Of a stretch of DNA of 64,000 nt, positions 27,616 to 44,992 are shown piece by piece. The number at the start of each line of letters is the position of its first letter. The first letter of the stretch is position 1. Source of the DNA: Xylogone sp. PMI_703 (Eukaryota; Ascomycota; Leotiomycetes); assembly GCA_021399445.1 (NCBI GenBank), contig JAJTUQ010000003.1, forward strand, positions 7,564,001 to 7,628,000, written 5' to 3'. The position numbers and the translations under genes were made by a program. The notes beneath the pieces were generated by a model. It searched no databases, was not told the origin of the DNA, and worked only from the letters and a program-made list of their open reading frames with translations.

Positions 27616-29193
27616 GTTTGGGATTATTCTTTCAGGAAGAAATAAAAGTTATGGGCGTTTGCTTGGAATGGAGAATCGCAATGTCAGGCCGTTTGGGAGT
27701 TCTTATGATTAATGCCAAGTTTGTTCTTAGGAAGGAAAAGCTTGTTGAGTCAATGAAAATGGATGCATTACTAGCATAGCTACTTTCGTACTAATTTAGA
27801 TATAGCCATTATCATATCGGATGGGCGCTGAAAATGTGACATTATTTTATATCTATCTTGATATCTATAGTACATCATGGAGATTTGGAGACTAGGATAG
27901 CAACTGAATAAAAGTTGAGATGAAAATGACAAGCAACTTCCCTTGAGGAGCAGAACCAGCATATTGCGAGGCATGGGTAGAGCTCAAGATCCAGCCATCT
28001 GGAGAAGCAATACTGAGTGTAGACAAGTCTAAACTCTCCGCACCTTGTTCTATACCAAAATGGATTCTGGGAGTATCAGAGATACCAGATCTCCAATGAC
28101 CCAGCCAACAACAGAGACACTCTTGGCAGATGGTTTAGTGGAAATAATGAGAGGTCAAATTAAGTATCAATTGCAAGAGATTGATGTGCGTAACGCTGAT
28201 AAAAATACATCACCCCAAGCCCCAAGGACCAATATTCCTATACCAATTCGCAACACCAAATTATTAGTAGTATCCCAACCCACAAAAAGACGAAATGCAG
28301 AAACCCACTGACCTAAGAAAAAAAGAAAGGTGAAGCGCCGTCCTCAACAGAGTAATCGGAATCGAATTGTACCTCTCCCCTCTAGAAGAAGAGGAAAGAG
28401 AAGCACGCCGCGTATTGCACTAAAGTGTCACGCCTGCTCAGCGCACACAATCTTCGCAACGGCCCTCCCATAGGGTATCCTGAATGAAATCAGGACCCTG
28501 CTTTTCTGATGCCAATTGCAGACGTGGGATCACGTCGAACCCTCACGGGCAGCAGCCCCAGACACGCAAGTGGTGAATGGCGCTGTTTTTCTTGAAGAAT
28601 ACTCCGAATTTCTCATATGCAAATAGGTAATGGGAGTGAAACAAAGGTTCCATTCCATTTGATATCTAGGTTTGGAAAGAACCTGGATATCTGTTTGTAG
28701 CATAGAAACGCAGCGTTGAAGAGGACGGCGCTTGGGGAAAGAAAAAGAAGAGAAGAAGGCGCACGCGGGGCAGAAAATTTCAGATATGACTCGATAGGCG
28801 GGTGGTTGCACTTTGAGCTAGTTCAGGTACCCGTAGGAGCTTTCTGGATTCGGTATGTAAAGTACACCGGAACGCCGTCAGTCACCTTTTTCTCGGCTTC
28901 GTCGGTGCGGGTGTTGGGGTGTGCCACCCCATAAACACAGCCACAAGTAGTGACGACGACAAAAGTCTTGGGGTCATAAGTCATAACCGGGACTTCTAGA
29001 ACCAACGTACGAGCTATTCAATCACGAGTTTATAAGTACAAAGGAGCGTTCGGACCCCGCTTGCTCGGATCAATTCGAGTTTCAACTGATTCTTTGATGT
29101 AATTACGACTCTTCGCTCCAAGCTCTCTCTCTCTTCCTACCGTACTACTGCAGGCACAGGATTTTAGTACGAACTTGATCGCAGCTAATAATC
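27616..29193. other. Intergenic region; one small unproven ORF
   Basis: About 1.6 kb between the DUF155 gene and the zinc-ribbon gene. A 53-codon minus-strand frame from an ATG at 28984 to 28823 has plausible codon use but no recognisable motif, and I do not call it. No tRNA or repeat was seen. Confidence 0.4.
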
Positions 29194-37969: not shown

Positions 37970-40742
37970 CTAATCTACGTCTCCTTCATCACCCCCAACA
38001 TTGAATTTCTTCCTTCCCCCACCACTAAGCTGCTGTAATGCAACCGTATTAACCTGGTTTCCAACCTTCTTCTGCATCCTCTCAATTTCTTCCTCGGCAT
38101 CCACCGCGTCCTCAGCCGCAAACTCCAGCACAAGTCTGCGGCCCAAAAGATGCGTATCTCTGAGTGCCTCCATCGCACTTTCAGCCTCCTTGACTGTAAC
38201 AAAGTCCGCAAATGCAAATCCACGAGCCGAGTTATCAATCTTCTTAGGTACACGTACAGAGCGGAGTTGGCCATAGGCTCCAAATAAGGATCGAACATCT
38301 TTTTTAGTTGCTTCGAAAGGCAAGTTCTTGATGATGATCTTTGTTCTCCGACTGGCCAGTTTCTTGGCTGTGTCTTCTTTTCGTCGCTCTTCAGCTGCAT
38401 CAACGCCGCGATGAGAGGCTTTGATTACAAGTTTATGATTGTCGAGGTTATAGCCGTCCATTGCCTTGAGGGCCGCTTGGGCTTGATCTTTGGTTCTGAA
38501 TTCCACGAAGCCAAAACCCATACTGAGAACCTGACCGGGTTTCTTAGGATCTTTCTTTGTATTAACGCGGGCAGAGATGAAACCGTTCAGAGGACGGAAT
38601 ATATCGTTCAGTCGTTCAGTCGTTGTGGCGAAATTCAAGTTCCTGACATAAAGGGTACTGGTATCAACAGGCTCGTCTGCTTCCTTGCCCAGTAAATCAG
38701 ATACGGATAGTTTGGCATTGGGCCCTTTATCTGTGGCCGTGGCTTGAACAGCAGTTGAGACTGCCGTAGTGAAGAGATCCTTTGGTGCCTTTTCCAGGAA
38801 CAGTACCGAATCTTTGAGTCGACGATAAGCTAAACTTGCAAATGCTGCCCTAGCATGAGTGGGTTGTGCAAATTCAACAATTGCGATAGTCCCGGAAGGA
38901 GGCATCAGAACTCGAAGCACCGATCCAAACTCTTCGAACATCTTTCTCAATTCCTCAAGAGTCATGCCATACGGAAAATTCTTGACAAGAATAGCCGTGT
39001 CGCCTCGTTCACGTTTCTTAAATGCATTGAGATCAACACCATTGTTCGCAAAGTAAGTTTTCGTTTCCTGGATAATGGAAGTTTCAGCAATTGCTTGCTT
39101 AACACCAGCATCTGCGGATGTGGGATCTAGCAAATCTGATTTTGAAACGCCCAATCGCTCCGCAACCGCAGAGTTTACTGCATCCTGATTCATATAGAGC
39201 GAGTTCCAGTTGAATGTGGTTGACGCTGCCTCCGCTTTCTTTTTGATTTGCTTTTGTTTCTTGAGCGGCAACTTCGATATCACAAACTCGTCTAACTTAT
39301 TCTCTTTCTTCGCTGCAGCGGGCAGTATATGAAGGAGCCTTCCTTGGAAAGGCTCACCATCCAAGTTATGGAAGGCTTCTACCGCGGCATCTGGATCTAT
39401 GTATTGTACAAGTAGGAACCCTTTGCTCTTCCCAGAAGCATCAACAGGAAGATGAACCTATATAACGGTGTTATTAGTAACTCTACGTAGTGTATGATAC
39501 CAGTAGTCACTGAAGCAGCCATAAATGTTTTCAGAAAAGACGAAGCATCTACTAAAATATTCGTTCCAGGTTCACATCATATGCATAAGCATAAGCTGTC
39601 CCTATCTGGATATTCATCATGAAACAGGGAGAGAGAAAACAACGAAAAATAGCCGCCTACCTCCTCTAGTGATCCAAATGGTTTAAAATGTTCTCTCAAA
39701 TCATCCTCAGTTGCACTGTATGGTAGGTTACGAACAAAAAGACGCCCGTTACTCCTTATTTTCTCGATGGTAGCATCTGTATCATCTTTCGTCTCGGGTT
39801 GCGCTACAAGATTTTCATCGTCGTTGGCTATCTCAACATCATCCCGAGCAGGCGAAGGCTCATCATCGGACTTGGGAGCATCCTCAGTAATGCTATCTAC
39901 AGGCAGTGATGTTGCAGTTGTAGCGGGTATCTCCTCGGGGTCCATAAGATCCAGTAACCTGTTCGTTCGACTCCGAAGCCAATCATCATCTGTAGCTTCT
40001 ACAGGCACTGCGGCCGGTTCGGGAACAGCCACCTCTATCTCAGAAGCTTCCTCAGCGATTTGAGGAGCGGTAGAAGTAGTGATAACAGATTCAACAACAT
40101 CCACCCTTGGCGGACTTTTGTTTCTGGCTTTTTTCGGAACAACTTCATACTCATCGTCACTCAGCCCTTCTGGCATCTCCATTGCCTGGATCTTCGATGG
40201 TGGTTCTTCTACATCATCCACAGCACCTACTACAGTCCAGCTCTTCTGCTTGGATACTGGTTGCATCACTTCCAAAAACTCTTTCAACTTGTGATCTGCC
40301 TCATCAACCTCATCACGTTTCCGCTTTGTTGAACTGTTTAGAGAGTCCGTTGCCGGAAGTGTTGGCTGCTCTTTCAACTTCTCTTGTCTCTTTCTCTCCC
40401 ATTCTTTCTCTCTTTGAGCCTTCCTGGACATGGGCAAAGCTGCATCAGATATCTAGGGAAGAATTAGGTCCATTACTCTCAGTTTCAAAAATTTTCACCT
40501 ACGGGTCTGGCGATTTCCACAGCAATCTTCGACATCCGTATGAATGTGCGATTGAAGTATTTGACAGCATTTTCAGCATCTTCTGGAGTCTTGTATCCAA
40601 TATATCCAATTCTTCTGTGGGCTATCAATTTTGCATCGGTGATTGGCTGCTTCACACTGAAATGCTTTCTAAATTCATCTTCGGAGATGGTTGGGGGCAA
40701 CCCCTTCACGAAGATGCGAGATGATGCTATTGCAGCCGGCAT
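37970..40742 (-). CDS. mrd1: Multiple RNA-binding domain protein Mrd1
   Basis: Three exons, 40742-40503, 40452-39661 and 39457-37970, giving 839 residues. There are five RRMs. RRM1 (about 9-80) begins SRIFVKGLPPTISEDEFRKHF. RRM2 (about 315-390) has GRLFVRNLPYSATEDDLREHF and is split by the second intron. RRM3 (about 499-575) has AILVKNFPYGMTLEELRKMF. RRM4 (about 612-695) has TLYVRNLNFATTTERLNDIF. RRM5 (about 717-795) has KIIIKNLPFEATKKDVRSLF. A charged linker with SRKAQREKEWERKRQEKL lies between RRM1 and RRM2. The number and spacing match yeast Mrd1/RBM19. Mrd1 is a nucleolar factor that binds pre-rRNA and U3 snoRNA during early 40S assembly. The gene is divergent from LC8. Confidence 0.94.
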
Positions 40743-41900: not shown

Positions 41901-42560
41901 TAGATGTTTTCCGCGTTCGAGAATCGGGATCGGTGTCAAGCTGACAAAAGAAAAAAGGGCCAGGACATGGAATATATACGGTATTGAAATTGATGAGATT
42001 TCTAACGGGGTCAAAAAGCTAAAGAGGTCTATTTTTGGACCCAAGCTATGAGATCCTTTCATATGGTATTTGCTTTCGCAATGCCTGCTTGACCACAATC
42101 TTGCTCAGTATGATTAATTGTGCATTTACTCGATGAGAATGTATTTCTGGCTAATTCTATTAAAACTGTTCGGGTAATGATACCAATAAGCAATCTATAT
42201 CGACAGACTTTGACTTCAGTACGTGATACGCAATATTTCATATGTTCAAATTTGGAAAGTGGCAGGTAGCAGATATCCCTTAGTTGGAATAAGATGCTTC
42301 GCTTTCGTCATGCTAGAAACGAGACCAGATAACCAACGTAGGTCTTAGTTTTCTGGCCTGATTATGGAATATTGAAGTCTTATATCATCATTTCCTTGAC
42401 TGTCCGCTATATTGTAATTACAATAGATTCTAGTTCCTCAAAATACATGAGATGGATGATCCCAAAGATAACAGACCTAAAATACAAAAAAAAGGGTTCC
42501 AGATGACAAAAGAGTTCGGGCCATGCAGCTATTATTTAATGCTGCACGCCCTACATCTCC

Positions 42561-42587
42561 CCTAACTGTATGTTGAATACAGTTAGG
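42561..42587. repeat. Perfect 11-bp hairpin
   Basis: CCTAACTGTAT at 42561-42571 and its exact reverse complement at 42577-42587 flank a 5-nt loop (GTTGA). It lies 660 bp past the LC8 stop, near the left end of the gene desert. Confidence 0.9.
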
Positions 42588-43368
42588 ATTGGCATTTACC
42601 TCCTCGCCCAGCAACAGTTCGACCTGACATTACACCATCACGGCACTCCCTGCTACTTTGTGGGATGGTGGTTGCTTATTTGAGTATATATAGAAGCTAG
42701 ATTTTTCAAAATGACGCTAGTGACGGTAAGGTTGAGGGTGTATGGTATAGTGGCGTCCTGATTTGCTGTGGCATAGTAGCCGTAAGTCTCACAGAAGCAT
42801 ACTATTTTGCACAACTTACTCTCATTGCAGTCTTTGGGCGCTTTGATCTATGAAATACCCCTCAAAAGTCCACTGTAGAAACCACAGCAACCCGCCAAGG
42901 TCCAATCAAGAACGCTAAACCCCGTCGTCCCATCTACGCTGCCTCGAAATCCCCTATATCCTACCCCCTGGCCACCTGACTTCCCAAAACGGAAATCCAC
43001 AAACCTCATACACTATCTATATAACCCCAAATAACAAACAAATACCTCAACGGTGGAGAATCGGTCGTTGTGGCACACTGGTATTCGCATACGGCGCCCA
43101 GTTCTCTGGGAGTCTCCTTTACCTTGGTGGACCACTCTGCCCTAATATGTATATATTTGAGATACTCGTATATATGTATATAGGGATATTGCTGATCGGT
43201 ACATCGCCCCCAAAGTATAATTCCCAGGAGCGTCTCTGCGGGGGGTATTTTTTTGCTCTTCAGCACTATTGATTTATTATTTTTTTTTTTAAAAAAACAA
43301 GGGGTTCTTTTTTTGTTGTTGAAGCTATATTTATTTAATGCTCATACAAGTGTATCTGCTATTTATTT

Positions 43369-44992
43369 CGTTGCGAGTCTGATATACAAAATTCATCACT
43401 ATACTTCTCAGCGCACTTCCATATCATGCCGAGGATATTAGTGAAAGTTTTCCGCCTTAGACACGCAACGAAAGATTGGCAAGGTAAATGTATGGTTTTT
43501 CTTGGAGATTGGGGGACTTGGTCGAAACCCTCTTTTTCACGTCGTCAAATTACTCTTCTCTAAGGCCGACGTTGTAGGTAAGGATACAAGGACAGTCTTG
43601 CTTTAGATGTGACAACGGAAGGCTAGAATGCACCAAATGAAGGGCTCCTCAAAATCTGCTGATAATGGCATTTCCTTGTTATATGGTATCCGCAACAAAG
43701 GCTGATGGTGACACACAAAGTCATTTTATGTGTATGCAGCCAGTGTCTAGTTTCGTTGCAAGTCTAGACAACAAAATCCGTCACTATATTGCTCGGCATG
43801 TCCTTTTGTCACCAATAACCACATGTAACTCTGATCGTTGCGGATCTGGGAATCACAAATCTTCACTATAACTCTCGGCACAAAAAGAAAGCTAAGGGGT
43901 TCATTCTATCATTTTCAGAAAAGACATCTTCTGTTGCGAATCTACGTTTTCGAATTCTTCACTATAACTCTCGGCGTAGAATTACAGAACGTTGCGTATC
44001 TGGAAGCTAAAGCCTTCATTACATCATCAGCATGGAATGCTGATCGTCTTTGTCACTGAAATACGTTGCGAATCTGAGGTTCAAAATTCGTCACTATCAT
44101 TCTCGGCGAGGTATATAACAGGCTACAAAGAGCCATCTCAACCGTTGCAAATCTGAGAATGAAAATTCTTCACTATATCTCTCGGCATGGACCTAGATGG
44201 AGAAGACAACTTCACGTTGCGAGTCTGTGTCCTAGAAATCATCACTATAAGTCTCGGCGCAGATGGACACAGAAAGGAGCTTTTCGTTGCAGATCTGAGT
44301 CTTTGGATTCTTCACTATAACTCTCGGCATTGAGGATGGAGAAATTGGTTTTATGTTGCGAATCTAAGACTTGATATTTATCACTATAACTCTCGGCATG
44401 AATGACCTCTCAGCTCTCTCCATTCATAGAGTATCATTTAGACCGTTGCGAGTCTGAGAACTATAAACCATCACTATATCTCTCGGCACAAGAATCAGGA
44501 TCAAAAGTGCATTTATGTTGCGCATCTGAATCCTGTGAACTTCAACTTTGTACAAGCTTTGTTCGTCAATTCTAGGAGATAAATCATGATTATAACAACT
44601 GAAATTTCGTTGCGGATCTACGCAGAGGAATACATCACTATATTACTCGGCATGCCGAACCACGAGACAAGGAAGCTTTCGTTGCGTCTCTGAGTCTCAG
44701 AAATCATCACTATATTTCTCGGCGCAGGGTTAAAGGATCTAGGACTCCATTCTCTGGTTGCTTTATGCAAGAAAGAAAATCGTTGCAAGTCTTAGAGTTC
44801 AAAATCTTCGCTAGATCTCTCGGCATGGGATGAGATTCATTTCTCTATCATAGATAATGAGATATTGCGAATAGCTCTTCAATTCCTCACTGTATCGCTC
44901 GTCACACAAAGCCCCTGTTTCTGTAATGCCAGATCATGTACTCACGTTGTACATCAGAGAAACGTAAAAACCGTTACCTGAAACCTCAGCAT
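43369..44992 (+). repeat. Interspersed array of about 17 copies of a 47-bp split element
   Basis: Each full copy has a 12-bp left arm (consensus CGTTGCGAATCT), a variable 14-bp centre and an 18-bp right arm (consensus N then TCACTATAACTCTCGGC), plus about 3 bp (often ATG or GCA). Plus-strand copies start at 43369, 43754, 43836, 43932, 43990, 44064, 44143, 44215, 44285, 44354, 44444, 44516, 44608, 44680, 44781, 44863 and probably 44945. One copy is inverted at about 43424-43470. Copies at 43990, 44516, 44863 and 44945 are degenerate. Start-to-start distances between neighbours from 43754 onwards are 58 to 101 bp, so unrelated spacers of about 11-54 bp separate the units. The arm spacing is kept exactly in 12 copies although the centres differ. 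The function is unknown. Confidence 0.9.
43424..43470 (-). repeat. Inverted copy of the 47-bp element
   Basis: Read on the minus strand this is CGTTGCGTGTCT, a 14-nt centre, then TCACTAATATCCTCGGC and ATG. It matches the array consensus with a one-base deletion in the right arm. It faces the first plus-strand copy (43369-43415) tail to tail, with 8 bp between them. Confidence 0.8.

Follow-up and report, generated by a model that had tools for sequence, protein, structure and literature searches.

The window analysed here is a stretch of 64,000 nucleotides (C19:7564001-7628000) in an assembly of 50.1 Mb and 25 contigs. Its minus strand carries a nuclear RNase P RNA gene (28341-28681) and the snoRNA Afu_335 (39529-39624), which lies between two RNA recognition motif frames that probably belong to one gene. 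The window also encodes a copper ATPase whose best named relative is a partial Scytalidium lignicola protein (85% identical), the next named relatives being, as we judge from their names, Leotiomycetes. An array of a 47-bp repeated element occupies positions 43368-44901, and repeat-induced point mutation indices are similar in the array and in the remainder of the window.

The array comprises 14 full copies of the element (13 forward and one inverted) and three partial ones. The 13 forward copies, from 43368 to 44826, were recognized by a gap-free 47-bp profile made from copies of the window, the inverted one by nhmmer, which allows gaps, and the partial ones by nhmmer run on a region of 2.8 kb alone. 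Copy 1 (43368-43414, plus strand; 52 bits with the profile, nhmmer E 6e-10) is paired convergently with copy 2 (43426-43471, minus strand; nhmmer E 1.6e-4; inverted repeats I3-I6), which is one base shorter. Copies 3 to 14, all on the plus strand and found by both profile and nhmmer, lie at 43753-43799, 43835-43881, 43931-43977, 44063-44109, 44142-44188, 44214-44260, 44284-44330, 44353-44399, 44443-44489, 44607-44653, 44679-44725, and 44780-44826. The partial copies, also on the plus strand, consist of a left arm only at 43990-44011 (nhmmer E 2.8e-4 on the 2.8-kb region), a weak left arm only at 44517-44533 (E 0.035 on the same region), and a weak centre and right arm at 44874-44901 (E 0.01, likewise). 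The profile scan found no place scoring like an element copy in the rest of the 64 kb, and shuffled-sequence controls gave no match in 1.47 Mb with the profile or in 0.33 Mb with nhmmer. The array reported in a preliminary description of this DNA is thus real, and its estimate of about 17 direct copies holds for the total, although one of the 17 runs in the opposite direction; nhmmer did not detect, in the 2.8 kb, the degenerate copy near 44945 that the end point given there would imply.

Adjacent full forward copies are separated by 22-54 bp, except for three of the 12 spacers (85, 117, and 338 bp), each of which contains a partial or inverted copy. The spacers had been described as unrelated, but not all of them are: of 66 pairs, 2 show similarity at p ≤ 0.01, where 0.66 would be expected, and a 353-bp part of the array that includes spacers aligns at 67% to an array at C1:5.97 Mb. 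The layout of the element is TCGTTGCGNATCT, 8-9 free bases, and AAATCNTCACTATA-NN-TCTCGGCGT, with 26 columns above 1 bit. The 14-bp variable centre initially proposed therefore reduces to these 8-9 free columns, its last letters (AAATC-like) being conserved. An extended profile indicated that conservation reaches no more than a few bases beyond the 47 bp and that the upstream edge is T-rich. The exact length is kept in 209 of 229 full copies and the others are off by 1 or 2 bases (nhmmer), a count somewhat favoured by the use of gap-free copies to build the model.

A two-arm search of the genome, as the preliminary description had proposed, showed that the element is widespread. A 35-place pattern with up to two mismatches gave 196 matches against 0 for the reversed control (about 100 matches were individually listed, among them all 88 exact ones), and the right arm alone gave 285 against 47. 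Grouped by hand, the 88 exact matches correspond to 27 places, and all 88 are located on six large contigs that represent 41.8 of the 50.1 Mb (83% of the assembly); by hand arithmetic, the chance that all 27 places fall on these contigs is about 0.7%. Other patterns bring the total to at least about 33 places by hand count. The 26 arrays that were read, including that of the window, contain 236 copies at E ≤ 1e-3, about seven further places being unread. The arrays read, out of some thirty scattered over the genome, hold 3-18 copies each, mostly head to tail, and in 14 of the 26 all copies run in one direction. The exact pattern was absent from viral-contig and genome-contig collections, neither of which includes a fungal set; in the viral contigs, the left arm by itself matched 76 stretches once each, which we take as chance. 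The frame read across an array had no protein relatives at E ≤ 1, and no comparable element was apparent in the literature searched, most of it available without subscription.

The left arm also occurs with other partners. Searched as TTTTGTTGCRNRTCTG, it gave 163 genome matches against 1 for the control (about 100 of them listed), and the right parts that follow differ: besides the element of the window (family A), we found a family B, whose right part is TCAGAATTTCAATACGAG-like, and a family C at C22:1364 kb, while a looser form of the left arm opens a family D at C22:1350 kb. These sister families have the left arm in common but not the right arm. A and B arrays are found together at C12:88 kb and at C1:5420 kb, and single left-arm copies are also found inside other dispersed repeats. 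The combination of a common left arm with differing right parts suggests related readers, that is, proteins that would share half of their recognition. In family C (L024, 5394-6738), units are often about 93 bp apart, and TGCAYGT and ACRTGCA appear by eye, uncounted, to change together in some copies, as in a hairpin or a palindromic site. One of two U2 snRNA genes has a B array (L048, C1:4851.6-4852.2 kb) starting about 240 bp downstream, perhaps by chance. Two dispersed repeats were noticed as well. One of about 210 bp, unrelated to the element, has copies at window positions 42507-42697 (+), L014 4149-4362, L021 4328-4496, L018 4132-4208, and L019 5985-6171; it gave 40 matches with the L014 copy and 36 with the window copy, both of which have a TATA-like end, TATTTGRGNATATATAGAAGCTA. 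Several of its copies are near A or B arrays and one is inside an A array. The other, of about 345 bp (L042 554-898 and L044 296-637, 86% identical), has one left arm near its edge, and L061 resembles it by eye.

Since array blocks have been duplicated, the divergence of the element can be compared with that of its surroundings. Our comparison uses 46 alignments of duplicated blocks, each of at least 140 bp and with both classes of positions; 31 pair blocks from separate arrays. The share of differing cells is 5.5% for conserved columns (168 of 3041), 26% for intermediate columns (282 of 1102), 35% for the free centre (453 of 1280), and 26% for spacers (1123 of 4287); because some alignments overlap, these cells are not independent. 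A constant box within a drifting unit is the pattern of a satellite that carries a protein-binding box. Local alignment understates spacer divergence, and part of the excess of the centre over the spacers may thus be artefactual. The 5.5% is not explained by detection bias: under a neutral simulation in which an identical threshold for detection was applied, 3510 of 4000 pairs were kept and their divergence was 23.9%. Among the 30 of the 46 blocks that were inspected, one (L034/L016) opposes this trend, with 0.19 for the arms and 0.08 for the spacers; it contains low-scoring copies. Gene conversion between copies should carry the centre too, as it lies between the arms, yet the centre is the most variable part. 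Selection in place would be the simplest reading of the conserved columns. The preliminary description had held that spacers homologous through ordinary tandem duplication of a longer sequence would speak against a discrete element: a longer unit was indeed copied, but mainly its 47-bp part was kept.

The spacing between copies is helically phased, as expected for a cluster of cooperative sites. Start-to-start distances of copies in the same direction range from 58 to 475 bp within arrays, with one of 2559 bp, and show peaks near 60, 72, 82, 90, and 100 bp, with no distance of 64-68 bp. For 112 intervals, the Rayleigh statistic R reaches 0.35 at a period of 10.25 bp, with p about 1e-4 relative to jittered data. 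When intervals were thinned to one per spacer-homology cluster (n=73), R was 0.32-0.37 at 10.5-10.75 bp, with p between 0.0004 and 0.0026 across five draws, giving a period of 10.25-10.75 bp overall. With gapped copies included, R is 0.32 near 10-10.25 bp (n=143), a value without control. Family B behaves similarly (unthinned, n=40: R 0.59 at 10.75 bp, p 5e-5). As for junctions between opposite orientations, 7 of 10 convergent ones, from six arrays, measure 56-60 bp, and the 12 divergent ones extend from 67 to 510 bp.

Several explanations that dispense with a selected protein-binding site were weighed against these data. Growth of an ordinary minisatellite, in which a unit of 60-100 bp was duplicated and drifted without function, would account for blocks that are homologous within and between arrays, spacers included; we nevertheless give it very little credence, as the conserved columns are about five-fold less diverged, the exact length is kept across a free centre, and the one-turn spacing persists when each spacer cluster contributes a single interval. 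The repeat-spacer appearance led to the element being called CRISPR-like, but an RNA-guided memory array with unique spacers, of this or another type, has next to no chance of being correct. CRISPR arrays resemble the present ones in having repeats with differing spacers between them, whereas the element lies in fungal nuclear DNA, its spacers are far from near-constant in length and some are related to each other, and no RNA structure or PF07282 effector accompanies it (PF07282, the one RNA-guided nuclease family searched, had 0 matches in the genome). Comparison of the window array with its own genome, a check suggested with the earlier proposal, gave 58 matches (its match to itself among them), every one of them at an array of the element, although very short spacer matches would escape such a search. 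The idea of a structured RNA with pairing arms finds no support either: no base pairs were predicted from 13 copies, the 30 strongest column pairs among 202 copies include no stem-like one and mostly link near columns, and no Rfam family exceeded its gathering score in 35 loci, which comprised arrays of A and B plus two stretches beside them, or in 18 other loci, and none matched near the window array. Each copy could also be a small snRNA-type promoter, with an upstream element and a TATA-like CTATAA at a fixed distance, making a short RNA from its own spacer. The left arm, fixed gap, and TATA-like right core, the mostly directional arrays, the T-rich upstream edge, and the TATA-like TCAATATAA upstream of the U2 gene that was read are compatible with this possibility. 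We consider it quite improbable, since the 231 bases up to that U2 start (one of two U2 genes) contain no left arm within one mismatch and, at two mismatches, only occurrences in pyrimidine runs, the RNase P RNA gene of the window has no scoring full element in its vicinity, no strong start signal follows the element, and the conserved CTCGGC after the TATA-like core would be left unexplained.

The arrays might instead be relics of DNA transposon ends, the arms being transposase-binding sites in terminal or subterminal repeats. In family B, inverted arms often stand some 110-135 bp from each other, as in small inverted-repeat elements (L040, L041, L043, L049, L055, and L058), left-arm copies sit within the ~345-bp dispersed repeats (L042/L044), and array blocks recur at other loci. 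Moreover, a family of transposon ends would give the same left-arm pattern as the sister families, and for that reason we retain this explanation, while regarding it as unlikely. A neutral relic is not expected to show the difference between 5.5% in conserved columns and 26% in spacers. The uniform direction of 14 of the 26 arrays also counts against it. The 52 flanks (up to 1.5 kb) of the 26 A arrays share no common border, the single flank-flank match being an unrelated dispersed repeat, and the borders of B arrays, viewed by eye at eight loci, show no clear target-site duplication. No transposase was found among the 27 Pfam-matched frames (60 scanned) beside A arrays and in the window, and no match to the subterminal repeats of a known transposon was found, in a comparison made without a transposon library. 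Such subterminal repeats resemble the arrays as short repeated sites for a DNA-binding protein; the arrays differ by the lack of shared ends and of a clear target-site duplication and by their strong constraint. Two transposon types were considered as owners and rejected. A transposon of the piggyBac type with a PF13843 transposase frame (L060/L057, C19:4372500-4376800) interrupts a B array between element copies and has terminal repeats of its own and TTAA at both ends, indicating that it is a guest in this array. The genome also contains 118 DDE_1 matches, which we take to be pogo-type transposons: neither arm was present around the three that were read, and 73 of the 118 are, by hand count, outside the six large contigs, where no exact site was found.

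Sixty frames beside arrays and in the window were scanned, and 27 had a Pfam match at E ≤ 0.001, some of them below Pfam's cut-off. These matches include an rhp7-type DNA repair protein, a tRNA endonuclease, NAD kinase, queuine tRNA-ribosyltransferase, Urb2, a gamma-tubulin complex protein, and a HET protein, and no common theme emerged among neighbours with a Pfam match. A bias of gene orientation towards 3' ends was dropped: Pfam-matched neighbours face the array with 12 3' ends and 10 5' ends, in a hand count that includes matches below the cut-off and omits one weak match and one non-nearest gene. A link to tRNA genes or TFIIIC was also discarded, as ARAGORN, set to the bacterial code and so perhaps overlooking some genes, called no tRNA in 24 array loci. 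As for the protein that would read the element, we considered a C2H2 gene at C21:1858 kb (L141 1063-1929, minus strand) with nine fingers, eight of them at an 84-bp pitch, and TGEKP-type linkers. It is the only long C2H2 array among the 45 zf-C2H2 matches listed (150 of 230 candidates scored). Judged by hand with the finger recognition code, this protein presumably reads a G-rich site, which mismatches the element, and it was rejected as the reader. At another locus (L009), an A array lies between two Myb-like frames (PF22980; 3269-3679 and 5467-6513, both on the minus strand) that are weakly alike; the first of these matches is below Pfam's cut-off.

The arrays are probably selected homotypic clusters of a long composite protein-binding site, filled in all likelihood cooperatively and acting as a chromatin or regulatory platform; this is the explanation that we favour, with a confidence somewhat above even. 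Among the options in the preliminary description was a site of fixed length bound by a dimeric or multi-part protein, and the exact length, strong constraint, and one-turn spacing support such a putative site. The element, its spread, its constraint, and its phasing are observed, and from them we infer the binding protein, its cooperativity, and its role as follows. Each 47-bp copy would be one site for a dedicated protein or a fixed complex, which would grip the left and right arms and skip the centre, as multi-module DNA-binding proteins can. Copies tend to lie on one face of the helix, and this alignment, together with the mostly fixed convergent distance, suggests that neighbouring molecules probably touch, the array being filled cooperatively. 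Arrays probably grew and spread through the copying of units of about 60-100 bp, after which selection would have kept the site while the spacers decayed. The arrays are intergenic and occupy at least 27 places on the six large contigs, where a filled array could serve as a platform. Its most likely role would be that of a cis-acting chromatin or regulatory platform, such as a boundary, a silencer, or an enhancer cluster, and a meiotic platform is conceivable as well.

Known systems share some of these features. Alpha satellite with its CENP-B box also keeps a short protein-binding sequence constant in drifting repeat units; here, the site is 47 bp long, many spacers are near-random, and the arrays are short, intergenic, and spread over large contigs. 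Homotypic clusters of transcription-factor sites are similar in their many noncoding copies and one-turn spacing, whereas the present site is far longer, the arrays contain 3-18 copies that are mostly head to tail, and their nameable neighbours lack a common theme. In C. elegans, the motif arrays of pairing centres are read by the related proteins HIM-8 and ZIM, and these motifs have one half in common and a second half that varies, like the sister families; here, however, no family is chromosome-specific, as each of the six large contigs carries exact sites. To our knowledge, long sites kept nearly letter for letter amid drifting surroundings are rare in fungi, and we know of no chromatin-organizing protein with a 47-bp footprint in this fungal group.

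The 47-bp element provides an exact bait for finding its protein, and the approximately 30 natural arrays, which differ in size and orientation, are material for testing function. More broadly, and only tentatively, the element and its sister families may belong to an undescribed genome-wide system of Leotiomycete fungi, in which related proteins would read bipartite sites with a shared left half and a differing right half and load cooperatively on one face of the DNA at 27 or more intergenic platforms, thereby organizing chromosomes or setting chromatin state.
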